A program made the translations under genes and the position numbers. From positions 1 through 24,508 of IMG/VR virus record IMGVR_UViG_3300027797_000133: a stretch of DNA of 24,508 nt. One strand, given 5' to 3'. Of this stretch, positions 3 through 24,508 are shown piece after piece. Each line of letters starts with the position of its first letter. Position 1 is the first letter of the stretch. The stretch is from a virus. The notes beneath the pieces were generated by a model. The model was not told where the DNA came from. It searched no databases and saw nothing but the letters and a program-made list of their open reading frames with translations.

Positions 3-3000
3 AATGCAGCCCTCAAAGACGATCCAGAGAACGCGGATAAGCTTGAAGCAGCCCGATTGGCGCAGGCTACGCTTGATGGTAAGAACGCTGGATTTGAAGC
101 CGCTACCGACCAAGTCAGAGACATCACCGCTCAACTTGAGGCAGCACCTGCACCTACGGCTACACCTGTTGCAACCCCTGCACCAGCAGCCGCCCCTGTC
201 GCTCCTGCTCCTGCCGCTGCCGTTGAACCGCCCGCTCCAGCACCTACGCCCGCCCCAGCGCCGGCGCCTACTCCAGCCCCCGCAGCGACGCCTGCTCCCA
301 CACCTACGCCCGCCCCTGCTACGCCCGCACCCGCGTACGCCGGCGGCGACCCTCGCCAGGATCCTCGTTTCGACGACCTGCGGGCAGACGTTAAGACTGA
401 ACTGCGTAAACTGTTTGCCCGCCTAGAAGAGCAAGAGGCTAAACTGGCCGACATGAAGGCCAAGAACAACAAGACCGAACAGAAGGAAGAGCAGATCCGC
501 CGAACCAAGGCGGCTATTGCTGCGAAGCTTGGCGACGCTGCTCCTGCGGTTGCACCTACGCCCGCGCCTGTAGCTGCCCCTGCCCCTACCGCACAGGCTG
601 CTCCCGCTCCAGCTGTCGCTCCTGCGCCAGCACCTGCGGTTGCCCCAGCTCCTACTGCCCAGGCAGCTCCTGCGCCTACGGCAGCCGCTACGCCCGCTCC
701 AGCCCCTACCCCTGCTCCTGCTACCCCAGCCCCAGCAACCCAGACTGCCGCTGAAAACAACGTAGAACCTGCACCTGTTTACCCAGGAGACAAAGCTCCA
801 GTAGTTAAACGCAAGGCTTGGTCTGAACTTTACCAGAAATGGCGCGCAGAGTATTCCAAGACTCACTTTGATGACGGCACACCAAGGGTTGCTATCACAA
901 TCCCCGGCCCTACCGCATCTGCCAAACCTGCTGCAACACAGAAGCCAAATGCAGATGGCGATCCGCGCAATGACAGCCGGTTTGATGCCCTTCCGCTTGA
1001 GTCGCGTAGCGCAATCAATGTAGCCTACAACAAGGTTATCAACGACCAGAAGCAGCGTGATAGGACTTCCATAGCCGGACGATCCACCAAGAAACTGGAT
1101 GATAGTATTGCCAGGAACAAGGCAGAGATTGAACGACTGCTTGCTAACCAGCGCAATGCCCCGGTAAACCCGAACGCCGCGCCTATCGACCCGACCGCCG
1201 GCGACCAGACTTACGACTACGACGAGACGCCGGCTGCGCCGGTCGTTACTCCGGCAGAACCTGTTGCTGAAGTAGCGCCGGCAGCTGAACCTGCTGCCGC
1301 TACTGAAGTCGCCCCAGACGCTACGGCCAAGGAAGACTCAAAGGCAGTCGCGCAGGCTAGGGTGCAACTAGCTAACCTTGAGAAGGCCGGCAAGGGTGAC
1401 AGTAAGCAGGCAAATAAACTCCGCAAGAAGATCGAAGAAGCATCCAAGGGCGGTTCGCTTGCCCAGGCCGAACTGGACCTAGACGCTGAAATAAGGGACT
1501 TCACGGACAACAACCGCACCAATGACATCGTTGGTCTTGGTGGACAGTTCAGCTATCTTGTCGTCAAGAAGATGGCGCTGATGATTGCGCGCGGAGTCAA
1601 GGACTTCCCATCCGTAGCCAAGTCTATCAAGGAAAGCTTTGGTAATATCGACCAAAAAAAGCTCAAAGAGCTTTTCAATAAGGCTTTGAGCATCGCCGGT
1701 AAAAACGCTACGGAAACGGTTCAGAACCTAAAGGAATTCAACAAAACAAACGCACCGAAGTTTGATGAAGGATCTGAAGAAATCTCTACGAGACAGCCTA
1801 CTAGTAAGAAAGCCCCAGAAGACTTCGTAGCCCAGAAGCTAATCATTGGTACTGACGCTCTCAATTCGACTGAAAGCGTGGCTAAAAAATCCGCTGACGC
1901 TGTTGCCAGTTACCCGAACATGCGACCGGTAGAGGGTGAGACTGCCAGGGAGACGAACGAGCGTTTCATCAAAATGGTTAAGGAGAATCTGATCTGGCTC
2001 CACAACCAGGTTCCTCCCGCCGTACGCGCGAGAAGCAAGCTTTGGTATGACGGCGCCAACAAGATGGCTAATGAATTCTCTAAAAAGTACAACGCCACGG
2101 CGTCGCAGGTTGCCGGCGTAATGGCCGCTCTCTCCCCGCAGAAAGATTGGTTTATGAACGTGGCACTTGCCGAGTATGTCTTGAAGGTTGCAAGCGAACA
2201 CAAGAATGATCCGTTCTCGCAGGAGATGTACGACAGGGCTGCGTCCATGATGACCAAGCCAAAGAAAGGTCCGGAACGTCCGCTGTTCAAGCCGCAGCAG
2301 CTCGCGGCTATAAAGAAGCTTATCGGCACCAAGTACAAGGACATGGACCTTTCGCAGAAAGCCCTATTCACGAGAATCCATAGCGAAACCTATACTGACC
2401 GCTCTTATCACATCCTGGCTCCGGAAGGTAATCGCCTCAATCTTGCAAGGACGTCAGAGGGTGAGTTGAGCAGGTATGGCTGGGGATCAATGCGTGAAGT
2501 CAAGAAGGCCATTGCCTGTATCGAGGATGGAAGCCTTGCCAATATTTCCAGCCAGATGGGCAAGGAGCATAAGGTTCGTAACTTCTACAACAACATCATC
2601 GCTCCCAACAGCAAGGATGGACATGTCACTATCGACACTCACGCCGTAGCTGCGGCCCTCATTCGCCCCCTCGCTGGCAAGAGCATCGAGGTTAAGCATA
2701 ACTTTGGATCGTCCGGCGCCGACAAAGTGGTGGGTGTTAACGGCACCTATGCCTTATACGCAGAAGCCTACCGCCAGGCCGCTGCCGAAGTCGGCGTCTT
2801 GCCACGCGAAATGCAGTCTATCACTTGGGAGGCTATCCGTGGGGCATACCCCAAGGAATTTAAGGGTGCTAAAAATGTTGCAGCCATTAACAAAATTTGG
2901 AATTCTTACAAAAATGGAAACATCTCCCTCGCAGAAGCCCGACAAAAATCAATCGATGTCGGGAAGAAATTCACCGACAAAAACGGAGGAGGCATCGCCA

Positions 3001-6000
3001 ATTACAGCTGGCTGGGACAGCAGTCCGAATTCCGACCCGACGATGGACTTTCTCCGAGCGACGTCAACGCCGGTGACACGCGAGAACTACCTGGAGATAG
3101 CGTACCTGGGGGAAGCGCCGGATCCGTTCCCAGCGGAACTGGAAGCACTACTTCCACCGGAACTGCAAATCAACAGTCCGGAAGAGACGCAGGAGTAGGA
3201 TCAGATGCAACCGTAAAGGGTTGGGCGAAGACCGTTGCCGCCGCGCAGCGTGACAAGCCAGAGGCTGCCATGCTGGCAGCCCAAAAGGTCGTCAAGGGCG
3301 GGATCGTAAATTACGCGATCGAACACGCCGGCGACATTCTTCACCGAGTTTACCAGTCTTTGTCGCAGTCCGGCACCGATCCTAGCTTTGGGTATGAAAC
3401 GGTCAAATCAAAGGTTGATCGGATCCTTCGCAACTTCCGACTAGAAGGCATCGACACGGAGGCTGATTTCTGGGCCAAGGAAAAGGAACAGCATGACATG
3501 GAGGTTGCCAGCGGCAAGGAAGGCGTCCCTTCGTGGGAGCAACGTAAGCAGGAAATCACGGAGAAGATGAAGCAGTTCGCTGCGGAGCATGACTCCCTGC
3601 CGGCCGAAAACGATCTTCAAGCCACCGTGAAGAGCATCAATGTCGCACTTGGAAATCTTGATTTCCAGGCCGCCATCGAAGGGATGAACAAACTCAAGCA
3701 AAAGCTTGAGTCACAAGATTCCTGGAGGAACTACGCCAGGGAAGTCGGATCCAATACCGAAGAAAATGCCGGCAACAAATCCCAGTCTAAAGCAGTCCTA
3801 ACCCCAGCCGGCGGAGTCGCCCAGGTAACCGGCGACACAGACCGATTAAACGGTCACCAGGGAGGGTTTGAGACGGACGCATACCACGCCAGCGAAGAAA
3901 GTTTTAACTCATTTGATGACAAAAATCCGCGAGCAAAAGTTTACCTGGCGTTAGGCGCCGAAGACGGCATAAAGCAATTTGGTAAAAAGGTTGGCAAGTT
4001 TACAGTACGCTCACAAAACCCAATCAACATCTTGCCGGGCAAAGATGGAAAGCTTTCCGAAGATGCAGTAACATTCTTAAAAGACTTTTGGAGACAGTAC
4101 CTCAAAGGACGAAGGGATGAAGGAGGACGAAGCCTTGGTCAGCAGGACCTAATTTCACTTGCTAAAGATGGGTATCTTTTTAACGAGCATGATACAGCGC
4201 AAGGCGACATGGAGAACTTTGCGTTTAAAAGTGGTTATGATGCTATTGTAATGCTTGATGTATCATCTGCTGGTTCTCCGATTATCGTAACGAAACCAGG
4301 CAACGCAAACACCACAAGGGCGGCCCAAACAAAGGGAGCAGTCCTAACCCCAGAAGGCGACGTCGCCAACCACCGCGACGCCGACCTAGCGAAGCGTGGC
4401 TTCATCACGCAAGAGGCTACCAAGATGCCGGCAGACCTGGCCGGCGCCAAGCTGGTCATCGAGCAGTCTGGAAGCACAGCAGACAATCTTAACAATCAAA
4501 ACTTTGGCAAGGGCCGTGTAGTTCTAGACGGAAGAACAATTGCCGAATTCGACTTCCACGACTACGACGGAAACCGTAAGCTTGACCACATCCACGTCCA
4601 AAAGAAGCACCGTAATAAGGGGCTTTCAAAAGTAATCCAGGCAGAGATTATTGAGCGAGGAAAGCGCAGCGAAGAAAACACCGCAGAAACGTACAGCGCG
4701 ACCGTCAAGGATCCGCTCGATCGCCCGACGGCTGGAATGGTTTCTCTTCTTGGTGAAGAAAATGTAAACGACAATGGACCGGATTACGCTGAATCTGCTC
4801 GCGGAGAATCTTATGCTTTCAAAGATCCAGACAACGGAGAATGGATTACAAAGACAAATGAAGTTAATGCAAACATCCCCAATCAGTACACGCCGGAGCA
4901 GCGCAAGCTAATCGCCGACATCAAGGCCGCATCGAAGGGCGACCCTGCAACTCTGATGGAGCGTGTCACCAAGCTTCTCGACCAATGGGAACGCGACGTG
5001 TTGGGCGATCCGGACAAGCCGATGACCAAGCTGTTGTCAATCAACCCACAGGCTTTGTCCGCATGGGCGTACCGCATCTCCAAGCTGATCGCCAAGACTG
5101 GCATGAAATTCGGTTCGTGGGCGAAGAGCATGGCCGGCAAGATGACCAAGCAGAACATGAAGGATATCTGGCAGCTTGCCAAGGCTATCGCCAAGACTCC
5201 CGCCGCCATTGCCAAACACTTCCTGGATAGCCGCGCCGACAAGCTGTGGGAATACTACAATAAGCGCAAGAATTCCGCAGAGATGCGTAAGCTTGCCAAC
5301 CTTATCTTCACTAGGTCTGGACCAGACGCTGACGCCGAAATCACTACTACTGGACCGGACGGAAACCCTGTCACAGAAGCAGTCCGCAATTCCATTCCGC
5401 AGCGCATCAAGCAGATCCGCACCCAATTCGCCAACAAGTACTCTAATCTTCTAAACCGATTCGGTACTGAATTCGCCAACATGAGCGAAGACCAGCGTAA
5501 GGCTTGGGACAAGGAATTCCGCCGCGCCGTGATCGGCCTTGACCCTCTGCCTCCGGGTGAAAAGGGCAAGGCAGTACTGGAATTCCGAGAAATGATGCAG
5601 GAGCTGCTGCAATACCAGCGCGAAGCCGGCATCGACATCGGTGACTCTGGTGCCGGATACTTCCCGCGCATCTGGTCAAGCAAGCTGATCCAGGAGAACA
5701 TCCAGAAGTTCTACCAGGTCGCCAAGGAGATGTACAAGAAGCGCGATCAGCGTCTGCTCGATAAGGCCATCGCTGATATCAATGACGGAGTTGACGCAGA
5801 GGCTGCCCGAAAGAAAGAACTTGATCTAGAAGCAAACCGTCGTGGGGCGAACCGTCGCATTAAGCCAGACTCCGAGTACCAGCAGGACGCGCGCGATAAC
5901 GCCAATGATAAGATCGACGCCCTACAGTCTGCACATGACGCCAAGGATGACGCGCACTACCAGTCGATGGCTTCGGCCTGGGCCTTGCGCGCGCAGACCG

Positions 6001-7703
6001 GACGCCTCGATGAAGTTACGCTAAATGACAATGGCATCAACCAGGCTAACGCACCAGACCATGCAGATCCTCGCATGTTCACGGACGAAGAAGCTTCCCT
6101 TGCCGATGAATTCCAGGACGACGACATCGACAAGACCGTCATTCGCTACGTCCACGCTGCGGTAAAGAAGTCCGAACTTGCCCGCGTGTTCGGAGAGAAC
6201 GGAAAGAAGTTCGGCAAGATGCTTGAGCAGCTCCAGCGGGATGGATTCTCTGAAGAAGAGATTAAGCACATCGCAAAGCTGGTACGCCAGTCGCTCGACG
6301 TAACCTCCAACAAGCTTGAAGGATTTGAAGCCAAGTTCATGGACTGGGCTAACTTCGTCGTCGTCTCCGGTTACCTTGGGTTGAGCTATATCAACAACCT
6401 CTTCCTTGAACCTGTGTCGTACGGCATCCGCACCGGAAGCCCTGCCCTGGCCCTTGAGGCTGTGGTTCGCACATGGCATCAGTTCGGACGCGAGATTCTG
6501 AAGTCAGTCAACGACTCCAACTTCATCCGAAAGCACTACAAGAACCGGAAGGAATTCGCTCGGTCTATGGACATGGCCCTTGCCGAGACTCTTGGTCTTA
6601 CCCACGTCGAACTTGATCGCATCGCCCAGGACAGCCATTGGGACTTTAACGCTGACATGGAGGAAGCCGGCAGCCCTCTCGCCAAGTGGCTTACCCAGCG
6701 CGTACTAAAGGCTAACTTCATGGAGCAATCTGAACGCGCGAAGGTAGCCACTTCGATGGCTATCGCCAAGGGACATCTTTCCAATGTCGCCCGCACGTTC
6801 AACGGAGACTCATTCCTTCAGAACGTATTTTCCCAGACAGGCATGGACGTCACAGCTACGGCTGCCGCCAAGTCGATGCTCCGCGAAGCCGGCGTGGCGG
6901 ACGCTGATCATGCTGACTTTGTAGCTTTCGTCACGTCCCTGCAAGGGATGAGCGACTCTGATTACGAAGCCGCCATAATGAGCAACGAACGCCAGGCCAT
7001 TATCTACCGCCAGGCATTGCAGCGTACCAGCACAGGCATGGCAATCAGCACGGACGCTTCGATGAAGACCGAAGGTTCTGACACTATCTTCGGCAAGATG
7101 CTGATGCAGTTGATGAACTACTCCTACGCCTACTCCCAGTTGGTGAAGGACCGTATGTACGACAGCGCCCTTGGTGCGTTCAAGCGTTCGACGCCGGCTG
7201 AACAGATTTCTGGCATGGATCGCGTGAAGTATATGATGCCGATGGTAGCCGGCGGTACTATGACCGTTATCGCTTCTATCGCGACAAAGGCTTTGGTTGC
7301 GTCGATGTTCCCTTCCGACTCTGGAGACGAATGGATGGAGAAGGATCCCATGATCCAGGTCTTGGACGCAGCTTCCTACGCCGGCATGTTCGGCAAGAAG
7401 TTTGAATACCTGTCACGCATGGTAATCCGTGAGCAGGTGCCAATGGGTCCGATCCCGGAGGCTGCCGGCAAGGCTGTCATCGCCGCCTCTTCAGCCATCA
7501 AGAAGGAGGGGGACTCCGACCGCGCAAACTACAACGCCTTAAAGTCAGTCCAGCGTACAGGCTTGAATCCTGTCGTGGTAGGTGGGGCTTCGGCCTTCAA
7601 TCCTGTGGCCGGTGGTGTGGCTAACTACATTATGCGCGACCGGGACTACAGCGACGCTATCCTTGAGGGTCTGACTGGCGTAGAAAAACCCAAGAAGAAG
7701 TAA
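3..7703 (+). CDS. Giant polyvalent (PolyVal-type) phage protein, probable internal virion/ejection protein, 5' end cut by the window
   Basis: The frame is open from base 3 to a TAA at 7701, so more than 2,560 residues are present and the true start lies left of the window. Order by base position: a short helical segment; Pro/Ala-rich linkers (about 143-333 and 541-742) around a charged helix opening GDPRQDPRF; a second copy opening GDPRNDSRF (about 954); a helical module (about 1530-1710); a DUF7178-like phage domain (about 1821-3020, with WYDGA, ALSPQKDW and VTIDTHAV); a Gly/Ser linker; an ADP-ribosyltransferase-like module (about 3880-4320, starting AYHASEESFNSFD); a GNAT-like module (about 4440-4780, with HRNKGLSKVI); a second helical module (about 5050-5210); then a long helical C-terminus with GYFPRIW and hydrophobic stretches near 6350-6420 and 7230-7310. 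This mosaic is typical of proteins packaged in podovirus-like heads and injected with the DNA. The ejection role and the two enzyme assignments are inference. The ORF is certain and the family likely. Confidence 0.85.
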   Translation, partial: NAALKDDPENADKLEAARLAQATLDGKNAGFEAATDQVRDITAQLEAAPAPTATPVATPAPAAAPVAPAPAAAVEPPAPAPTPAPAPAPTPAPAATPAPTPTPAPATPAPAYAGGDPRQDPRFDDLRADVKTELRKLFARLEEQEAKLADMKAKNNKTEQKEEQIRRTKAAIAAKLGDAAPAVAPTPAPVAAPAPTAQAAPAPAVAPAPAPAVAPAPTAQAAPAPTAAATPAPAPTPAPATPAPATQTAAENNVEPAPVYPGDKAPVVKRKAWSELYQKWRAEYSKTHFDDGTPRVAITIPGPTASAKPAATQKPNADGDPRNDSRFDALPLESRSAINVAYNKVINDQKQRDRTSIAGRSTKKLDDSIARNKAEIERLLANQRNAPVNPNAAPIDPTAGDQTYDYDETPAAPVVTPAEPVAEVAPAAEPAAATEVAPDATAKEDSKAVAQARVQLANLEKAGKGDSKQANKLRKKIEEASKGGSLAQAELDLDAEIRDFTDNNRTNDIVGLGGQFSYLVVKKMALMIARGVKDFPSVAKSIKESFGNIDQKKLKELFNKALSIAGKNATETVQNLKEFNKTNAPKFDEGSEEISTRQPTSKKAPEDFVAQKLIIGTDALNSTESVAKKSADAVASYPNMRPVEGETARETNERFIKMVKENLIWLHNQVPPAVRARSKLWYDGANKMANEFSKKYNATASQVAGVMAALSPQKDWFMNVALAEYVLKVASEHKNDPFSQEMYDRAASMMTKPKKGPERPLFKPQQLAAIKKLIGTKYKDMDLSQKALFTRIHSETYTDRSYHILAPEGNRLNLARTSEGELSRYGWGSMREVKKAIACIEDGSLANISSQMGKEHKVRNFYNNIIAPNSKDGHVTIDTHAVAAALIRPLAGKSIEVKHNFGSSGADKVVGVNGTYALYAEAYRQAAAEVGVLPREMQSITWEAIRGAYPKEFKGAKNVAAINKIWNSYKNGNISLAEARQKSIDVGKKFTDKNGGGIANYSWLGQQSEFRPDDGLSPSDVNAGDTRELPGDSVPGGSAGSVPSGTGSTTSTGTANQQSGRDAGVGSDATVKGWAKTVAAAQRDKPEAAMLAAQKVVKGGIVNYAIEHAGDILHRVYQSLSQSGTDPSFGYETVKSKVDRILRNFRLEGIDTEADFWAKEKEQHDMEVASGKEGVPSWEQRKQEITEKMKQFAAEHDSLPAENDLQATVKSINVALGNLDFQAAIEGMNKLKQKLESQDSWRNYAREVGSNTEENAGNKSQSKAVLTPAGGVAQVTGDTDRLNGHQGGFETDAYHASEESFNSFDDKNPRAKVYLALGAEDGIKQFGKKVGKFTVRSQNPINILPGKDGKLSEDAVTFLKDFWRQYLKGRRDEGGRSLGQQDLISLAKDGYLFNEHDTAQGDMENFAFKSGYDAIVMLDVSSAGSPIIVTKPGNANTTRAAQTKGAVLTPEGDVANHRDADLAKRGFITQEATKMPADLAGAKLVIEQSGSTADNLNNQNFGKGRVVLDGRTIAEFDFHDYDGNRKLDHIHVQKKHRNKGLSKVIQAEIIERGKRSEENTAETYSATVKDPLDRPTAGMVSLLGEENVNDNGPDYAESARGESYAFKDPDNGEWITKTNEVNANIPNQYTPEQRKLIADIKAASKGDPATLMERVTKLLDQWERDVLGDPDKPMTKLLSINPQALSAWAYRISKLIAKTGMKFGSWAKSMAGKMTKQNMKDIWQLAKAIAKTPAAIAKHFLDSRADKLWEYYNKRKNSAEMRKLANLIFTRSGPDADAEITTTGPDGNPVTEAVRNSIPQRIKQIRTQFANKYSNLLNRFGTEFANMSEDQRKAWDKEFRRAVIGLDPLPPGEKGKAVLEFREMMQELLQYQREAGIDIGDSGAGYFPRIWSSKLIQENIQKFYQVAKEMYKKRDQRLLDKAIADINDGVDAEAARKKELDLEANRRGANRRIKPDSEYQQDARDNANDKIDALQSAHDAKDDAHYQSMASAWALRAQTGRLDEVTLNDNGINQANAPDHADPRMFTDEEASLADEFQDDDIDKTVIRYVHAAVKKSELARVFGENGKKFGKMLEQLQRDGFSEEEIKHIAKLVRQSLDVTSNKLEGFEAKFMDWANFVVVSGYLGLSYINNLFLEPVSYGIRTGSPALALEAVVRTWHQFGREILKSVNDSNFIRKHYKNRKEFARSMDMALAETLGLTHVELDRIAQDSHWDFNADMEEAGSPLAKWLTQRVLKANFMEQSERAKVATSMAIAKGHLSNVARTFNGDSFLQNVFSQTGMDVTATAAAKSMLREAGVADADHADFVAFVTSLQGMSDSDYEAAIMSNERQAIIYRQALQRTSTGMAISTDASMKTEGSDTIFGKMLMQLMNYSYAYSQLVKDRMYDSALGAFKRSTPAEQISGMDRVKYMMPMVAGGTMTVIASIATKALVASMFPSDSGDEWMEKDPMIQVLDAASYAGMFGKKFEYLSRMVIREQVPMGPIPEAAGKAVIAASSAIKKEGDSDRANYNALKSVQRTGLNPVVVGGASAFNPVAGGVANYIMRDRDYSDAILEGLTGVEKPKKK
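143..333 (+). repeat. Pro/Ala low-complexity linker 1
   Basis: The sequence encodes runs of PAPAPT-like residues built from repeated CC(T/A/C)GC(T/C/A) codons. It joins a short N-terminal helix to the first GDPR-type charged helix of the giant protein. Such linkers are usually flexible tethers between folded modules. Confidence 0.85.
541..742 (+). repeat. Pro/Ala low-complexity linker 2
   Basis: This is a second PA-rich tract with internal repetition (the unit APTAQAAPAP occurs twice). It separates the first charged helix from the KAWSELYQKWRAEY segment. It also creates long minus-strand shadow frames. Confidence 0.85.
3791..4353 (+). repeat. Direct 17-bp repeats flanking the ADP-ribosyltransferase-like module
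   Basis: The 17-bp sequence AGCAGTCCTAACCCCAG occurs at 3791-3807 and again at 4337-4353, in the same reading frame. The two copies encode the linkers AVLTPAGGVA and AVLTPEGDVA. The ART-like module lies exactly between them, so the repeats mark its edges. This suggests insertion, duplication or swapping of a cassette by homologous linkers. Confidence 0.8.
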
Positions 7704-9870: not shown

Positions 9871-9962
9871 TAGTAGCTTTCAAAAAAAGCATAGTAAATT
9901 TAAAGTGGTGATTGACGCACCTACACCCAGTAGGCATACCCCTTTCCATCGGACCCAACACC
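9871..9962 (+). promoter_or_regulatory. AT-rich leader between lysis and replication blocks, possible promoter
   Basis: After the holin-like stop the sequence becomes locally AT-rich. A weak hairpin GCTTT-caaaa-AAAGC lies near 9878-9892. TTGACG at 9912 resembles a -35 box, but the candidate -10 (CATACC, 17 bases later) is poor. CCCAAC at 9954-9959 precedes the GTG at 9963. This is the only non-coding break before the replication genes, so a promoter is plausible here. Confidence 0.25.
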
Positions 9963-10250
9963 GTGGACATCAAACTCGACATTCAAAAGCTGGTCGCCTA
10001 CTTCGGCGGTCGCATCAATCTCTGGCGCAAACTCAACGCCGCCGGCTACAAGCTATCCGTTAAGACCATTGAGAAGTGGTCCGAACGTGACAGCCTTCCG
10101 GCTCACCGCATCGTCCAGTTAATGGACCTTGCCAAGCGCGATGGCCGTGTCATCGATCTAAACTCTTTCCTGCTGAACTCCGCCCCCAACGCCGAGACGA
10201 AGCTTTCCCCCAACCGACATGAAAAACAAAAAGTCCGCAGCAGCCGTTAA
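9963..10250 (+). CDS. Small helix-turn-helix DNA-binding protein, possible Cro-like regulator
   Basis: Read from GTG 9963 the protein has 95 residues. I prefer this start to the earlier in-frame TTG (9912) because the window's recurrent CCCAAC leader sits three bases upstream. The region FGGRINLWRKLNAAGYKLSVKTIEKWSERDSLPAHRIVQL fits a compact HTH bundle: a first helix, then a turn and recognition helix (SVKTIEKWSER), then a stabilising helix. Such small proteins commonly regulate phage transcription. As first gene of the replication block it may control that block. Its end overlaps the next gene by 32 bases. Confidence 0.5.
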   Translation: MDIKLDIQKLVAYFGGRINLWRKLNAAGYKLSVKTIEKWSERDSLPAHRIVQLMDLAKRDGRVIDLNSFLLNSAPNAETKLSPNRHEKQKVRSSR

Positions 10251-10665: not shown

Positions 10666-10682
10666 TCTCCCAACCCAACAAC

Positions 10683-11552
10683 ATGATCAAAATCATCAAG
10701 GCCGACGACCGCCTCAAAGCGGTCCCAAAAATCAACATCGCCCTGTTCGGCCCTGCCGGCGTCGGCAAGACCACCCAGGCTCGCACGCTCGACCCCAAGA
10801 CCACGCTGTTCGTGGACCTTGAGGCCGGCACCCTCGCCATCCAAGACTGGCCGGCAGACGTCATCGACGTCCGCGATGTCGCCCAGACCTTCGGGAAGTA
10901 TCCGTGGGAAATCGCCCGCGCCCTCGCCCTGTACGTTGGCGGCCACGATCCCAGCGACGCCACCGGTCCTTACTCCAAGCCTGTCCATGAGGCTGTCTCG
11001 ACCGCCTTCGCCAACATCGACCTCGCCAAGTACGACACGATCTTCATCGACTCGATTACGGTCGCCGGTCGTGAGTGCTTCAAGTGGGCCAAGGTCCAGC
11101 CGGAGACGTTCAATCGTGAAGGCAAGCCCGACACTCGCGGCGCCTATGGTCTGCTCGGTCAAGAGATGATCCGCTGGCTGACCCACCTCCAGCACAGCAG
11201 CAAGTCTATCATCCTGTCTGGCATCCTCGACCAAGAGGTCGATGACCTCAAGCGTGTGTCTTGGAATCCGCAGATCGAGGGCAGCAAGACTGGCCGTGAG
11301 CTTCCGGGTATCTTCGACCAGGTCATCACCCTCCAGAACTTCAAGAACGAGGACGGCTCAATGTACCGTGCCTTCTGTTGCCAGCAGCAGAACCCTTGGG
11401 GTTACCCCGCCAAGGACCGCTCCGGTCGCCTTGATATCCTTGAGGCTCCAGACCTCGGCGCCCTCATCAAAAAGATTCGTGAAGGTAAGCGTGTCGATAC
11501 CAACCTCGTCCGCACCATCCCCGCTTCCACCCCCAAACCCAACACCAAGTAA
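10683..11552 (+). CDS. Sak4-like RecA-fold ATPase (phage recombinase/annealing protein)
   Basis: The 289-residue protein starts at ATG 10683, preceded by a doubled CCCAAC (10669-10679). It has Walker A GPAGVGKTT (residues 23-31), a short acidic strand TLFVDLEAGTL typical of this group, and Walker B YDTIFIDSI. Motifs such as GAYGLLGQEM and FDQVITLQ match AAA_24/Sak4-type phage ATPases. Sak4 proteins are short RecA-core proteins that promote ssDNA annealing and act with an SSB. The next gene is an ssDNA-binding protein, as usual for Sak4 loci. Strand annealing during replication or repair is the likely role. Confidence 0.75.
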   Translation: MIKIIKADDRLKAVPKINIALFGPAGVGKTTQARTLDPKTTLFVDLEAGTLAIQDWPADVIDVRDVAQTFGKYPWEIARALALYVGGHDPSDATGPYSKPVHEAVSTAFANIDLAKYDTIFIDSITVAGRECFKWAKVQPETFNREGKPDTRGAYGLLGQEMIRWLTHLQHSSKSIILSGILDQEVDDLKRVSWNPQIEGSKTGRELPGIFDQVITLQNFKNEDGSMYRAFCCQQQNPWGYPAKDRSGRLDILEAPDLGALIKKIREGKRVDTNLVRTIPASTPKPNTK

Positions 11553-20562: not shown

Positions 20563-20716
20563 TTCATCTCTGCCCTGTACCTCGGCCAAGGAGCGGCGGA
20601 TCAAGGCATGGCACGAAGTGCCACCCTACAGCATGTGGGAGAAAAGCGGGTTTGAGGAAGGGGTTTTCTACCCCCCTCTTCCCCGCTTCCTTTGGGCGTC
20701 GAGGATACTAGGTTAA
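20558..20716 (+). CDS. Possible ORF with non-canonical start or +1 frameshift extension
   Basis: After a stop at 20540, the frame is open to TAA 20714 and reads like protein: SAKERRIKAWHEVPPYSMW, then FEEGVFYPPLPRFLWASR. The first start-like codon is ATT 20558, overlapping the TGA (20560) of the preceding gene. The only ATG (20633) leaves 27 residues. A +1 slip at GAT-TGA would instead append this segment to the 86-residue acidic protein. It could also be chance. Confidence 0.25.
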   Translation: MDSSLPCTSAKERRIKAWHEVPPYSMWEKSGFEEGVFYPPLPRFLWASRILG

Positions 20717-20994
20717 GTCGTTGTTTGATATAGGGTTAACCCTGTTTGCACCCCCCCTTCCTCGCCTGTTTCTAGAAATTAGCTACCCCCCTTCCTCGTC
20801 CATAAGTGACGAAGGGCCAGTCACTTATAGACTGACGAGGAAGCGAGGATACCCCTTATATCAAGATAGATAGTCCATCCTCGGGCTTTGGCCCTATCCC
20901 TATGGGGAAGGGCGTCGCCTACGTCTACTATTCAATCGATACCAAACCAAGGACAGACACTTGACCGGATACCCATGACGACCATGATCCGGTC
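20717..20994. other. Repeat-rich intergenic region, candidate origin or regulatory hub
   Basis: No convincing gene is present. The region has a 12-bp perfect palindrome AGGGTTAACCCT (20732-20743), pyrimidine boxes CCCCCTTCCTCG(C/T)C at 20751-20766 and 20786-20800 (a reversed partial copy at 20654-20663), a nested hairpin (20791-20843), the 9-mer CGAGGATAC at 20700-20708 and 20844-20852, and an inverted repeat GACCGGAT/ATCCGGTC (20963-20970 and 20987-20994) ending at the rusA start. Such density suggests a replication origin or a promoter/operator region. Confidence 0.5.
20791..20843. promoter_or_regulatory. Nested two-stem hairpin
   Basis: The outer arms CTTCCTCGTC (20791-20800) and GACGAGGAAG (20834-20843) and the inner arms ATAAGTGAC (20802-20810) and GTCACTTAT (20820-20828) are both perfect. 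The apical loop is nine bases, with one unpaired base on the left side and five on the right between stems. There is no U-tract, so it is more like an origin or RNA regulatory structure than a terminator. Confidence 0.65.
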
Positions 20995-21441
20995 ATGGAC
21001 GACGTCGTGATGCTCAACATCGAAGGCACACCCAGGCCGCAACCCAGGCCGAGGTTCGTCAATGGTAGGGTGGTATCGACAGCCGATGCCAATGCACGCA
21101 TGTGGAAGGATCAGATCAACGCCACCGCCAAGATCGCCGTCGAGGCAAGGGGTATGCTGGAAGCTTCAGCCATCGCCGTCGTCATGCGTTTCGACATGCC
21201 CACCCCCAAGGCAGACCGGCATGGCAGGCCGCACACGTTCCGGCCAGACGCCGACAACCTAGCTAAACTTGCGCTGGATGCGGTCATGTCAGCCGGCCTA
21301 CTCAAGGACGACGCCGCCGTCTCGACCCTCGTCGTCACCAAGACATGGGCCGGCAAGGGCGGGCTGATCTTGACCCTGCACGACGACGACCGCACCCCTT
21401 CCCCTGTGCCGGCAGATCGGATTCCCGGGTGGATCAAGTAA
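20995..21441 (+). CDS. rusA: RusA-family Holliday junction resolvase
   Basis: The 148-residue protein begins at ATG 20995. It shows the RusA pattern: an N-terminal GTPRPQPRPRF, a helix WKDQINATAKIAV, then FRPDADNLAKLALDAVM and GLLKDDAAV, in which the aspartates of PDADN and KDD bind the catalytic metal. RusA dimers cut four-way junctions made by recombination or replication. It completes the set of Sak4, SSB, helicase and nucleases encoded upstream. An inverted repeat overlaps the bases just before the ATG. It converges with the minus-strand cassette across a hairpin. Confidence 0.85.
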   Translation: MDDVVMLNIEGTPRPQPRPRFVNGRVVSTADANARMWKDQINATAKIAVEARGMLEASAIAVVMRFDMPTPKADRHGRPHTFRPDADNLAKLALDAVMSAGLLKDDAAVSTLVVTKTWAGKGGLILTLHDDDRTPSPVPADRIPGWIK

Positions 21442-21448
21442 ACAAGAA

Positions 21449-21470
21449 GGCCAGCCGGTGAGGGCTGGCC
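21449..21470. terminator. Hairpin between convergent genes, probable bidirectional terminator
   Basis: GGCCAGCC (21449-21456) pairs perfectly with GGCTGGCC (21463-21470) around a six-base loop, eight bases after the rusA stop and 31 before the end of the minus-strand gene. There is no T-run on either side, so its strength as an intrinsic terminator is uncertain. Confidence 0.5.
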
Positions 21471-21501: not shown

Positions 21502-22059
21502 TTACGCACGCAGGCGGCGGTCGTCGATCCAAGACCCGGTGCCTCCGACCTTGTGGCGGATCCGGTCTAGCATGTCGGCGGTGTCCTTGAGATCGGCCGG
21601 CACACCGGGGCGATCGTCGTCGAAGTCCTCATGGTTTTCCACCCAACCGTCGAGGGCATACGAGGCAAGGTCGTCAAGCAAGGTGAGGCAGTCCTTGGCA
21701 TCCTGCTTGTCGAGGGTGACGTCGTCTGCCGTGGCGAAGGACATGGCGAAAGCATACTCATCCTTCCCGATATAGGTTTGCACCATATCAACCTTGCGGC
21801 ACCAGCACTCGTATCCGGTGAGGGATCGGAGTTTGGCGAGGCAGGCGAGTGCGGCCTTCTCATGCATGGCCGCCGTGTCCAAGCCGTAGTCCAAGGACAG
21901 GGTGACAGAGGCGGGGCGGTGGGACATGTCGTCGGTCAGCCAAGCCTTGACCCTGGCGCCCCGGGCAGGGGTGGGAGGGAGGAACCGGGTGCGGATCGCT
22001 CGGGCGGAGCGGCGGACAGTAGCGAGGCCGTCCGGTGTGGTGGTGATGTTGTCGGGCAT
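21502..22059 (-). CDS. Conserved-looking phage protein of unknown function (185 aa)
   Basis: I start the gene at the ATG complementary to 22057-22059 because the C/A-rich leader with CCCAAC lies just upstream. A longer frame to 22167 would overlap the neighbouring gene with a Pro/Arg-rich shadow. The N-terminal segment (FLPPTPARGARVKAWLTDD, then SVTLSLDYGLD) recalls a domain I associate with phage hypotheticals. An acidic segment near the C-terminus (NHEDFDDDRPG) follows. No catalytic motif is seen. Confidence 0.6.
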   Translation of the reverse strand: MPDNITTTPDGLATVRRSARAIRTRFLPPTPARGARVKAWLTDDMSHRPASVTLSLDYGLDTAAMHEKAALACLAKLRSLTGYECWCRKVDMVQTYIGKDEYAFAMSFATADDVTLDKQDAKDCLTLLDDLASYALDGWVENHEDFDDDRPGVPADLKDTADMLDRIRHKVGGTGSWIDDRRLRA

Positions 22060-22073
22060 GGGTGTGGGTGTGG

Positions 22074-22097
22074 GTGTTGGGTTAGGGTGAAGGGTTA
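22074..22097 (-). promoter_or_regulatory. C/A-rich leader repeat, copy 1
   Basis: The 24 bases differ from the copy at 23812-23835 at only two positions. On the sense strand it begins with the TAA of the upstream gene, runs through a CCCTAACCCAACAC core and leads into the C/A-rich spacer before the ATG of the 185-residue gene. The repeat may be a translation signal or an mRNA processing site. Confidence 0.6.
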
Positions 22098-22466
22098 AGC
22101 TTGGCCGTCGAGCCGGGCGTAGAATGCAACAGCGGCGGCCTTGGCTACGGCGGCGGTCTTGTGCCACTCTGCGGCGGCCTTGTCGAAGTCCAGCATGGCG
22201 TCACGGCGTAGGCCGGACAGGCGTGCGTGATTCAGATCGCAGGCGAGGACGGCTTCGTCGTCTACCTTGCCGGCCTTGTTGCGGGCTTCGAGGTGTTCGA
22301 GTTTGGTCTGCTCGACTGCGATCTCCCGGTCAAGGGAGCAGACGAGGCGGGCCAGATCGGCGGCTTCGCTGGATCGGTGGTGGTTGATAATGTCGGCGTC
22401 GGCCTTCGCTTCCCGGAGGAAGGTGAGGATGGCGTCGGGCTTGGGGGTGCGGGTGCGTTTGCTCAT
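22095..22466 (-). CDS. Helical unknown protein (123 aa)
   Basis: The ATG is complementary to 22464-22466; the leader upstream is C-rich (CCAATCCC just before ATG) with no Shine-Dalgarno. The protein is almost all helix, with a basic N-terminus (MSKRTRTPKPDAI) and charged helices (LDREIAVEQTKLEHLEARN, DKAAAEWHKTAAVAKAAAV) that could form a coiled coil. The stop TAA is part of the repeated leader of the next gene. No family recognised. Confidence 0.6.
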   Translation of the reverse strand: MSKRTRTPKPDAILTFLREAKADADIINHHRSSEAADLARLVCSLDREIAVEQTKLEHLEARNKAGKVDDEAVLACDLNHARLSGLRRDAMLDFDKAAAEWHKTAAVAKAAAVAFYARLDGQA

Positions 22467-22487
22467 GGGATTGGATAGGAAGGGGTG

Positions 22488-22507
22488 CCTACAGATTGGA
22501 GGGTGTC
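22488..22507 (-). promoter_or_regulatory. Repeated intergenic element, copy 1 (GACA...CTCCA...CTGTAGG)
   Basis: The sense strand reads GACACCCTCCAATCTGTAGG. A near match lies at 24176-24196 upstream of another minus-strand gene at a similar distance from its ATG. Here it is preceded by TT, giving a TTGACA hexamer, but no good -10 box is visible 17 bases later. It is a candidate promoter, operator or processing site. Confidence 0.4.
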
Positions 22508-22760
22508 AAGCCTGTTTGTCCATCTCGGGCTTGTACCGGAACAGGAAGTCGAGGCGGATGCATACGCCCCTTGCCCGATTCTCTTTCGCCTCGGCCTGGA
22601 GCATGTTCCGGTAAAGGATTGCCGACTCCGGGTCGTCGAAGCGGCCCGGGTGGGATCGATAGGCGGCCACGGCGGCCTTGACCGCTTCGCCGGCGGCGAT
22701 GCGTTTGGCCCATGCCCTGTCGAGGCTGGCCTGTTGGTGAGGGGGGAGGTTGATGATCAT
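22506..22760 (-). CDS. Small unknown protein (84 aa)
   Basis: The ATG is complementary to 22758-22760, preceded by CCCACCACC. The protein is helical and basic (LDRAWAKRIAAGEAVKAAV, then AILYRNMLQAEAKENRARG), with a C-terminal CIRLDFLFRYKP. Its TGA lies at the edge of the repeated element at 22488-22507. No function is recognised. Confidence 0.55.
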   Translation of the reverse strand: MIINLPPHQQASLDRAWAKRIAAGEAVKAAVAAYRSHPGRFDDPESAILYRNMLQAEAKENRARGVCIRLDFLFRYKPEMDKQA

Positions 22761-22774
22761 GGTGGTGGGTAGGA

Positions 22775-22894
22775 TTAGAGGTTGGGGTTGTCGATGATCT
22801 CCAGCAGGTCGGGGCCGGTCGCAAACGCCCAGAGGGCGAAGGCGATGAGGGCGGCCAGCATGAGGGCGATGGCGATGGTGCGAAGGGTGGACAT
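22775..22894 (-). CDS. Tiny membrane protein (39 aa)
   Basis: The ORF, complementary to 22892-22894 at its ATG, encodes 39 residues with a single hydrophobic span (IAIALMLAALIAFALWAF, about residues 7-24) and an acidic tail (LLEIIDNPNL). Its leader differs from its neighbours: an AT-rich stretch (GCAAAATAAAAGAC) instead of CCCAAC. One membrane span and a short tail fit many phage membrane peptides, including superinfection or lysis regulators. No specific role can be given. Confidence 0.5.
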   Translation of the reverse strand: MSTLRTIAIALMLAALIAFALWAFATGPDLLEIIDNPNL

Positions 22895-22931
22895 GGCGTC
22901 TTTTATTTTGCGCAAGTTAGAAAGCTTCCGG

Positions 22932-23336
22932 TTAGCGGCGGACGTGAGTAACCGGCACCATGCGGATCGTGCGGAGGTTGAATTCGACGAGGGCCTGGAG
23001 GGCGGCACGCTCAAGGGCGACCGCTCCCTCCATGTCGTCGATGTTCCCGGTGCGGTGGGCATACAGGGTATGCGTCCGGGCGAGGTGCAGATCGGCGTCG
23101 AGCATGGCACGCTCGGCGTCGTTGGACTGGGCGATCGACTGGGCGATGCCGTCGGCCATCCGCTCCAGATCGGCGGCACGATCCAGATCGGCGGCACGCT
23201 GGCCGGCCCAGATCGAATCCGGGAAGGCGGCGTTGGGGGCGTTGGTGCGGATGGATGCGGCGTGCCGGCGGAGGGCGTTGATCTCGCCCTTGGCGGCGGC
23301 GTGTTGGTGGGGGGACATGATCATGGGATTGGACAT
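22932..23336 (-). CDS. Helical unknown protein (134 aa)
   Basis: I begin at the ATG complementary to 23334-23336, right after a CCCACCACCACCACC leader. Longer translation to 23411 would include untranslated leader (TTTT). The protein is Ala/Arg-rich and helical. A tandem 16-bp duplication (23165-23180 and 23183-23198) encodes a repeated RAADL unit. No motif is recognised. Confidence 0.55.
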   Translation of the reverse strand: MSNPMIMSPHQHAAAKGEINALRRHAASIRTNAPNAAFPDSIWAGQRAADLDRAADLERMADGIAQSIAQSNDAERAMLDADLHLARTHTLYAHRTGNIDDMEGAVALERAALQALVEFNLRTIRMVPVTHVRR

Positions 23337-23362
23337 GGTGGTGGTGGTGGGTGCTGGGTGAA

Positions 23363-23800
23363 TTACTTGGTGACGTTGTGGAGGATGTCGGTTGACCAAT
23401 TGCAGGCCCACTCTTCGACGCTGTCGCAGATCACGTCGCCGATCCGCTCTTCGATCTCCTGCATGACCATGTCCTCGGCCTGCTTGACCGAGCCGGCTTC
23501 GACGATGAACCGGGCGATGATCTCAAACGAGCATGTCCAGCGTCCGATGTCTTCGCCGTCGCACTCGGGGCCGTTGTCTTCGACGGACTGGCCGATGACG
23601 TCGAAGCGATCGGCAAGGGCGGCCAAGCTTTTGTCGGTGGCCGCCTTGGCCGTGCGGCAGGTGGCCCGCTTGGCGATGAGGGCGTCGAGGTCGCCCCGGG
23701 TGTTCTTGAGGGCCGACTTGGCGGTCATGTATCCGGTGCCGGTGTCTTCGTAGCGATCGATGAGGAAGCGGACGAGGACGGCGTGGGTGGTGTCTTTCAT
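23363..23800 (-). CDS. Unknown protein with several cysteines (145 aa)
   Basis: The ATG is complementary to 23798-23800 and is preceded by two CCCAACAC units within a repeated leader. The protein is acidic, with helices (LIDRYEDTGTGYMTAKSAL, AEDMVMQEIEERIGDVI) and five scattered Cys (ATCRT, PECDG, WTCSF, VICDS, WACNW). The spacing does not form an obvious zinc site. No family is recognised. Confidence 0.6.
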   Translation of the reverse strand: MKDTTHAVLVRFLIDRYEDTGTGYMTAKSALKNTRGDLDALIAKRATCRTAKAATDKSLAALADRFDVIGQSVEDNGPECDGEDIGRWTCSFEIIARFIVEAGSVKQAEDMVMQEIEERIGDVICDSVEEWACNWSTDILHNVTK

Positions 23801-23811
23801 GTTGGTGTTGG

Positions 23812-23835
23812 GTGTTGGGTTAGGGGAAAGGGTTA
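23812..23835 (-). promoter_or_regulatory. C/A-rich leader repeat, copy 2
   Basis: This copy matches 22074-22097 at 22 of 24 positions. It again begins with the stop codon of the upstream gene and ends in a CCCAACAC core ahead of the ATG at 23800. Similarity in non-coding bases between unrelated genes suggests a functional leader cassette. Confidence 0.6.
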
Positions 23836-24147
23836 GACGGCGATCTCGTACTGGGTGCCGGCGATGGCAGGCACGTTGGTGAGGAAGTAGCCGATGCGGT
23901 TGACCCGGTGGTAGCCGTCGCAGATCAACAGGTCGCCGTCGTCGCCCTCGACGAGCGACCAGACTTGAAGGTGGCGGTGCTTACCGTCGGCCCAGATCAG
24001 CACCTCGGCGAGGTCGGCACCGAACGTCTCAAACATGGAGCCGTCGAAGGGTGCGTCCGGGGTGATGGTGTTGCTGATCGGGTTGAACGTCTCGACCCAA
24101 TTGTCGAAGGACATTTGGACGAAGGCGGGCTTGGTGGATTTGCTCAT
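23833..24147 (-). CDS. Conserved-looking unknown protein (104 aa)
   Basis: The ATG is complementary to 24145-24147; CCCAAC lies a few bases upstream (24151-24156). The sequence contains FDNWVETFNPISN, FDGSMFETFG, VWSLVEGDDGD and YHRVNRIGYFLT. I recall this W...DG(D/E)...G.H.VNRIGY pattern from small conserved phage and bacterial hypotheticals of unknown function. No catalytic residues are evident. Confidence 0.6.
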   Translation of the reverse strand: MSKSTKPAFVQMSFDNWVETFNPISNTITPDAPFDGSMFETFGADLAEVLIWADGKHRHLQVWSLVEGDDGDLLICDGYHRVNRIGYFLTNVPAIAGTQYEIAV

Positions 24148-24175
24148 GGTGTTGGGTTGGTGGATGAAGGTATGT

Positions 24176-24196
24176 CCTACAGGGTGGAGGTTTGTC
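24176..24196 (-). promoter_or_regulatory. Repeated intergenic element, copy 2
   Basis: The sense strand reads GACAAACCTCCACCCTGTAGG, close to the copy at 22488-22507. It lies in the gap between the stop at 24202 and the ATG at 24147. Conservation between two unrelated gaps suggests a shared promoter, operator or processing signal. Confidence 0.4.
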
Positions 24197-24201
24197 GAGG
24201 T

Positions 24202-24508
24202 TTATTTTCCGGAAGCTTTTGAGGCGGCGACGGCGATGTTGGTGATGACCATGAGGTCGTCGGACAGGCAGTCGGCGGTGCATGCCAGATCGCCGGCGTC
24301 GTCTTCGGTCAACACCCTAGGGGTGTCGCCGAAATTGAATCCGTCGAGCGTGCCTGCCACCTTGCCGGCACGGCGGGCGTGGTCGGCGATGAGGGCGAGG
24401 GCCGAGCGTTGGGCCTTGAAGGCCGCCAGCAGGGTCTGGAGGGCCAGCAGATCGCCGTCCCCGAGGCACCCGAGGGCCGGGTTGGAGATCGAGCGTGGGC
24501 CGGTGAGC
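24202..24508 (-). CDS. Unknown protein, 5' end cut by the right edge (at least 101 aa)
   Basis: The minus-strand frame ending in TAA (24204-24202) is open to the window edge with no stop. The visible part is helical (LLALQTLLAAFKAQRSALAL, then IADHARRAGKVAG), followed by FNFGDTPRVLTEDDAGDLA and an Ala/Ser-rich end (VAASKASGK). It continues the minus-strand cassette. The true start is outside the window; internal GTG codons are not convincing starts. No family recognised. Confidence 0.5.
   Translation of the reverse strand, partial: LTGPRSISNPALGCLGDGDLLALQTLLAAFKAQRSALALIADHARRAGKVAGTLDGFNFGDTPRVLTEDDAGDLACTADCLSDDLMVITNIAVAASKASGK

Follow-up and report, generated by a model that had tools for sequence, protein, structure and literature searches.

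Recurrent C/A-rich leaders without Shine-Dalgarno sequence in a putative early accessory operon of an uncultured phage family

In cluster K mycobacteriophages, a short conserved start-associated sequence (SAS) lies a few bases before the start codons, mostly ATG, of non-structural genes only and is reused before unrelated genes, and about half of these sites carry an additional imperfect inverted repeat that is thought to bind protein (PMC3203893); the function of the SAS and of its extended form (ESAS) was still called unproven in 2025 (PMC12699233). Related features have been described as the repressor-bound stoperators of cluster A mycobacteriophages (PMC3203893), the boundary sequences at phage mosaic joints, where a short conserved sequence stands at the borders of exchanged genes (PMC3029335), the initiation independent of a Shine-Dalgarno (SD) sequence in SD-poor bacteria, at weakly structured starts with upstream A/C signals (PMC5397173), and the ACA translation enhancers, which act beside an SD (PMC3879156). 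Here we analyse a cassette of small minus-strand genes (g1 to g8, numbered from the operon's last gene) separated by recurrent C/A-rich leaders, at one end of a 24,508-bp IMG/VR virus record (IMGVR_UViG_3300027797_000133), the whole of which is termed the window.

SAS/ESAS is the nearest known kind. Like an SAS, the cassette leader is linked to the start codon, is reused before unrelated genes and is limited to non-structural genes (a leader matrix, described below, matched 62 of the 85 starts in the cassettes and none of 90 late-gene starts), and a subset of the leaders (those of g2 and g7 among the seven in the window) carries an upstream imperfect inverted repeat, though of different sequence and size. 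Membership fails, however, because the SAS is an SD sequence: it contains AGGAG, whereas the cassette leader is G-poor, C/A-rich and SD-free, and the two sequences are unrelated. The 13-bp SAS consensus GGGATAGGAGCCC is not what stands beside the cassette start codons, where the consensus is ACCCAACACC (5.7% G over the leaders), and the dyad here is of 15 bp with a 3-bp centre, where the ESAS has paired 17-bp repeats. No SD-free phage leader of comparable kind was found in the literature searched, most subscription journals being outside its scope. From the sequence, the cassette is probably an accessory early operon that is co-regulated with replication, translated without an SD via its C/A leaders, composed of swappable genes and controlled by a repressor together with the replication genes.

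The cassette genes were called by our own script. From position 21502 to the window end, the minus strand carries a tandem array of seven complete genes and one gene cut off by the end of the window (g8). As the initial annotation had described, the array converges on the replication block, whose RusA gene it faces; the gaps, from the g1 leader to the g7 leader, measure 35, 39, 14, 37, 26, 32 and 54 nt. At the cassette's end lies a stem-loop with a T-rich tail (minus strand, 21470-21449), and its stem pairing is kept via double changes in relatives (GGCCAGCC/GGCTGGCC, GGCCCGCC/GGCGGGCC and GCCCCGCC/GGCGGGGC); a search of Rfam gave no match. The cassette extends past the window: its counterpart in the relative G001 (44,683 bp; end repeat of 127 bp) has 14 called genes, is the sole minus-strand operon and is flanked by the convergent RusA gene and by a divergent structural operon (large terminase, P22-type portal and capsid).

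Leaders were collected as the gaps of 6-75 nt between adjacent cassette genes (gaps of <6 or >75 nt were dropped), and their conservation in relatives was borne out by 85 leaders across 11 related cassettes with 111 called genes. Their consensus is TAA-CCCTTC..ACCCAACACC-ATG: the start codon is ATG in 85 of 85, the preceding stop is TAA in 71 of 85, and the last ten bases read ACCCAACACC, with C at -7 (0.86), A at -6 (0.77) and C at -2 and -1 (0.82 each). Within the window, the leaders of g1 and g6 are identical at 22 of 24 bases counted from the TAA of the preceding gene; this match, pointed out at first inspection, was never reached in 1000 dinucleotide shuffles of the leaders, whose best stop-anchored match had a mean of 14.5 and a maximum of 20. 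That a C/A-rich leader precedes each gene is true of five of the seven window leaders, that of g2 being moderate and that of g4 an exception. The telomere-like TAACCCTAACCC in the g1 leader is a coincidence arising from the C/A composition. Separately, some cassette leaders share another short palindrome, TTTGCGCAAA or CTTGCGCAAA (window 22907-22917, and the L066, L055 and L056 cassettes).

No cassette start carries an SD 4-mer (window, 0 of 8; G001, 0 of 14; G002, 0 of 13), against a frequency of 9-14% at randomly chosen positions in the same genomes. On the main strand, the frequency at starts is close to that background (5 of 24, 9 of 40 and 5 of 42, respectively), and the same near-background frequency was found in all 18 family loci examined (GC 42-64%), late genes included. 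That the measure works is indicated by annotated starts picked by hand in two cultured structural relatives: an SD was found at 25 of 33 in Microcystis phage Mae-Yong1326-1 and at 23 of 34 in Rhizobium phage RHph_N65. In folding predictions spanning -30 to +18, the mean minimum free energy was -1.9 kcal/mol for the starts of cassette genes (n=110), compared with -12.6 for segments within these genes (n=93) and -7.3 for starts on the main strand (n=143). As far as folding prediction goes, the cassette starts fit the open-start, SD-independent initiation known from SD-poor bacteria. The weak structure around the start and the upstream A/C signals are common to both that initiation and the ACA enhancers (PMC5397173, PMC3879156), but those are host-wide biases or enhancers beside an SD, whereas here a recurrent leader is limited to one phage gene class.

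The distribution of the leader among gene classes was determined with a matrix built from the leaders. At a score >5, the matches amounted to 62 of the 85 cassette starts (leave-one-genome-out) and, in five genomes, to 13 of 91 starts in the replication block and none of 90 late-gene starts; in the window, the matches outside the cassette are those of the gene that opens the replication operon (GTG at 9963) and of the Sak4-like gene (10683). Judged by these matches, the leader marks a non-structural gene class and occurs on both strands. Early-class expression, as originally proposed, is favoured by the sequence, because the leader and the operator-like element described below recur at replication genes but not at structural ones.

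The near-background SD frequency in all 18 loci, late genes too, would also be seen if the leaders were the host's ordinary SD-less translation plus low-complexity drift, with no early-class signal, and the genes were ordinary phage ORFan filler; SD-poor phyla do show C signals just 5' of starts and C/A near -15 (PMC5397173). This is possible but unlikely; against it stand the matrix, which picks out cassette and some replication starts but no late-gene start, the weaker folding of the leaders relative to main-strand starts, and a match among leaders that goes beyond dinucleotide shuffles.

The gene content of the cassettes is mosaic. The 111 called genes fall into 24 labelled groups and 24 singletons whose order changes, and g4 is 86-92% identical across relatives while its neighbours vary. 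For example, G007 and G010 are nearly identical across g4 and all 44 nt of its leader up to the ATG, beyond which their genes differ. Among the unique ends of blastn high-scoring segment pairs (HSPs) of >=100 nt, 106 of 228 breakpoints fell in leader zones versus 29.9 expected (~3.5-fold; maximum of 48 in 2000 permutations); counts were made with minimum HSP lengths of 100 and of 200 nt, and with short C/A-rich HSPs included the figure was 176 of 409 unique ends. Since some excess is expected wherever genes move as whole units, the result shows clean exchange at the leaders and not the leaders as its cause. As at boundary sequences, mosaic breakpoints thus coincide with a conserved sequence, but the joint here also serves as the signal for starting translation and is found in almost all gaps of a single operon.

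Mean leader similarity was 0.40 for pairs sharing both the gene and its upstream neighbour, 0.24 for those sharing the gene alone, 0.21 for those sharing the upstream neighbour alone and 0.10 for those sharing neither, against 0.04 for shuffled leaders. Because similarity tracks both neighbours to about the same extent, the leaders look like exchange joints common to both sides rather than parts of one gene. The idea of a modular gain of genes together with their translation signal therefore stands for the content, which is modular, but not, as worded, for the signal, as the genes do not simply bring their own leader with them. The clustering of breakpoints, the nearly equal tracking of both neighbours and the Sak4-like annealing protein encoded by the phage could all be read to mean that the leaders are conserved mainly as DNA, as recombination joints of the boundary-sequence kind that drive gene exchange, with translation secondary. 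We rate this somewhat lower than ordinary host translation: the signal peaks in the last ten bases before the ATG, the leader also precedes fixed replication genes, and the same pattern would appear if leaders selected for translation passively served as joints. More speculative still is a dedicated early-class translation signal: ACCCAACACC-AUG would be read, with phage early messages preferred, by a ribosome-associated factor that the phage makes or modifies, or by an SD-independent route specific to the host. The 30-bp joint would double as a recombination port, so that the phage family would have an operon into which counter-host genes can be plugged, in a host without SDs.

An operator-like element, T[TC]GACA-N(1-2)-CCTCCA-N3-TGTAGG (TTGACA plus the imperfect dyad CCTNCANNNTGTAGG), is found in the g2 and g7 leaders and also ahead of the replication operon; it was scanned for with variable spacing, as fixed spacing misses the g2 copy. 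Dyads with >=10/11 matches and a TTGACA-like hexamer number 4, 3, 5, 4 and 1 in five genomes, against averages of 0 to 0.1 in shuffles (ten each). At least one copy of the element is present in 10 of the 11 cassettes, the eleventh cassette (L012) being partial, and none of the structural operons carries it in full. In temperate phages, Cro/CI operators lie at the divergent region of the regulator and CI genes, and here too a site was found at divergent regulator or repressor genes. The gene diverging from the replication operon at the element encodes a tyrosine recombinase in L024-L027 and L033, an Xre/CI-like protein in L029, and a 69-aa protein in G002 (L065:9396-9605), L018 and L021, which we take to resemble a single histone-fold protein, Pfam giving no match for the G002 copy (the Pfam search covered the proteins of L024, L029, L088 and G002). 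When 2.9 million IMG/VR contigs were scanned with the whole-element pattern, nine stretches were returned: seven in known family contigs, one in a new family member (L086, terminase 95% identical) and one in a distinct temperate phage (L088). In L088, the element precedes a gene for a CI-like protein (HTH_26 match at E=2e-12), an integrase comes next, and a 40% relative of the window's regulator diverges. The regulator itself, a Cro-like candidate, scores 35.5 of the 38 bits required for the carph-isopro domain, just below the cut-off; its structure model is a bundle of helices (mean pLDDT 74.5), for which the top PDB hit, N15 Cro, is not significant (E=0.8).

The element is probably a lysogeny-type operator, and we infer a promoter function for it. 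A dyad at the regulator/CI divergent region that is repeated at other early genes is shared with the Cro/CI operators and the stoperators; the putative sites here differ in their weak -10 and in that several stand within the gaps of an accessory operon. Least likely is a late or constitutive cassette with CCTNCANNNTGTAGG as the site of a host regulator unrelated to lysogeny, which the lack of a canonical -10 would suit but which sits poorly with an element placed between a CI-like gene and a regulator homologue in L088, beside integrase or Xre genes in relatives, and in full in no structural operon. As a side observation, variant dyads (CCTCCA-N3-TGTCGG) occur near the upstream end of three cassettes (L050, L052 and L053).

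Under the favoured reading, the cassette would be the accessory early operon of a podovirus-like phage family with temperate ancestry, transcribed against all other genes and terminating beside RusA. As the same element stands before the replication operon and the Cro-like regulator, the cassette and the replication genes would form one repressor-controlled early regulon, in which repression at the shared element, presumably by a Cro- or CI-like protein, would silence both together. On induction or infection, transcription would run through the cassette to the hairpin, each gene being read from its own open leader; the unstructured, almost G-free TAA-CCCTTC..ACCCAACACC-ATG would replace the SD, with ribosomes initiating on the open AUG. 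As nearly the same leader stands in every gap, genes could be exchanged cleanly between leaders through homologous recombination, and an incoming gene would be translated at once.

Several points weigh against this reading. Downstream of the TTGACA there is no canonical -10 (CATACC, ACATAC and ACCCCT stand in its place), so the element could be an operator without a promoter, and a consensus scan of the cassette found 0 sigma-70 promoters. The assignment of the regulator to the element is by neighbourhood only, and the regulator's top PDB hit is the non-significant one to N15 Cro. The leader is strong at just 13 of 91 replication starts and is thus not a mark of all early genes, and the 11 phages are related, so that the counts above are not independent events. 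Finally, no host was identified, a helicase-profile scan of genome contigs yielding 208 pattern matches and no relative.

A capsid-profile scan found four distant relatives (in a Deltaproteobacteria metagenome-assembled genome, Pseudovibrio, Nitratireductor and Vibrio), and the phage family is uncultured and, as the record names read, from fresh water. A cyanobacterial host, considered since SD-poor phyla show C signals 5' of starts, was not supported by the leader matrix, which matched 0 of 38 and 0 of 38 starts on two cyanobacterial plasmids, themselves poor proxies for a chromosome, and 0 of 30 in Pseudanabaena phage Pam1.

The cassette genes had been described as of no recognised function, and searches agreed: Pfam, PHROGs and NCBIfam gave no functional family and PADLOC, whose models represent defence rather than counter-defence proteins, no match, so that no product with known counter-defence or takeover homology was found in these four. 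Relatives of g7 at 33-40% lie on large plasmids of Vibrio, Methylomonas and Sphingopyxis, which by sequence fits a mobile accessory gene; their neighbours are mostly hypothetical and give no function, a g7 query against viral contigs returned five pattern stretches, none confirmed, and the g7 structure model has a mean pLDDT of 42.6. For the cassette products, the likeliest class is that of small early accessory proteins that act on the host; an anti-defence role is a reasonable guess and nothing more.

The leader matrix and the element provide a sequence handle on early accessory genes in a phage family where homology is silent, and the 85 SD-free leaders form a natural set for probing SD-independent translation; the translation signal itself may be a recombination joint underlying phage mosaicism. 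The features of the window are collected in Table 1.

Table 1. Cassette genes, leaders, operator-like elements and associated features by window position.
Feature	Position	Strand	Remarks
Operator/promoter-like element	9912..9934	+	Same kind of element; before replication operon
Leader end CGGACCCAACACC	9950..9962	+	Precedes the regulator's GTG
Cro-like regulator candidate	9963..10250	+	95 aa; predicted helix-turn-helix
SAS-like leader	10666..10682	+	Of Sak4-like gene 10683-11552
RusA-like resolvase	20995..21441	+	End of replication block
Terminator-like hairpin	21449..21470	-	Between cassette and convergent RusA gene
g1	21502..22059	-	185 aa; operon's last gene; family in 7/11 cassettes; weak phrog_3199 match (E=6e-6)
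g1 leader	22060..22094	-	C+A 0.91; no G; SD-less; after g2 TAA
g2	22095..22466	-	123 aa; in 5/11 cassettes
g2 leader	22467..22505	-	C+A 0.69; includes operator-like element
Operator/promoter-like element	22488..22509	-	TTGACA-C-CCTCCA-ATC-TGTAGG; before g2
g3	22506..22760	-	84 aa; in 3/11 cassettes
g3 leader	22761..22774	-	C+A 0.86; post-g4 leader similar in G001, where g2 comes next instead
g4	22775..22894	-	39 aa; hydrophobic single helix
g4 leader	22895..22931	-	C+A 0.62; 19% G; exception (not C/A-rich); contains CTTGCGCAAA
g5	22932..23336	-	134 aa; in 8/11 cassettes
g5 leader	23337..23362	-	C+A 0.88
g6	23363..23800	-	145 aa; in 6/11 cassettes
g6 leader	23801..23832	-	C+A 0.88; matches g1 leader 22/24 from stop codon
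g7	23833..24147	-	104 aa; plasmid relatives at 33-40%
g7 leader	24148..24201	-	C+A 0.78; operator-like element; ends ACCCAACACC-ATG
Operator/promoter-like element	24176..24198	-	TCGACA-AA-CCTCCA-CCC-TGTAGG; before g7
g8	24202..24508	-	5' end past window

On the plus strand, the window holds, in order, part of a giant protein, lysis genes and the replication block (Sak4-like, SSB-like, helicase, Cas4-like nuclease, primase/helicase and RusA). The giant protein (window 3-7703; >=2566 aa, and 3108 aa in G001) has a proline/alanine-rich N-terminal part and is probably a virion or ejection protein. Before RusA, 424-439 nt without called genes (window 20563-20994) are of similar length in four genomes, carry the repeats GGCACGAAGTGCC and CCCCTTCCTC and are a possible replication origin. 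Between the cassette and the structural operon, L062:756-1321 and its equivalents in G002 and G003 contain TGTAGGCAAAAAACTTTCTCCTACA, and a TTGCNT-N17-CACTAT there ends ~6 bases before the first structural ATG, so that this mRNA is possibly leaderless.

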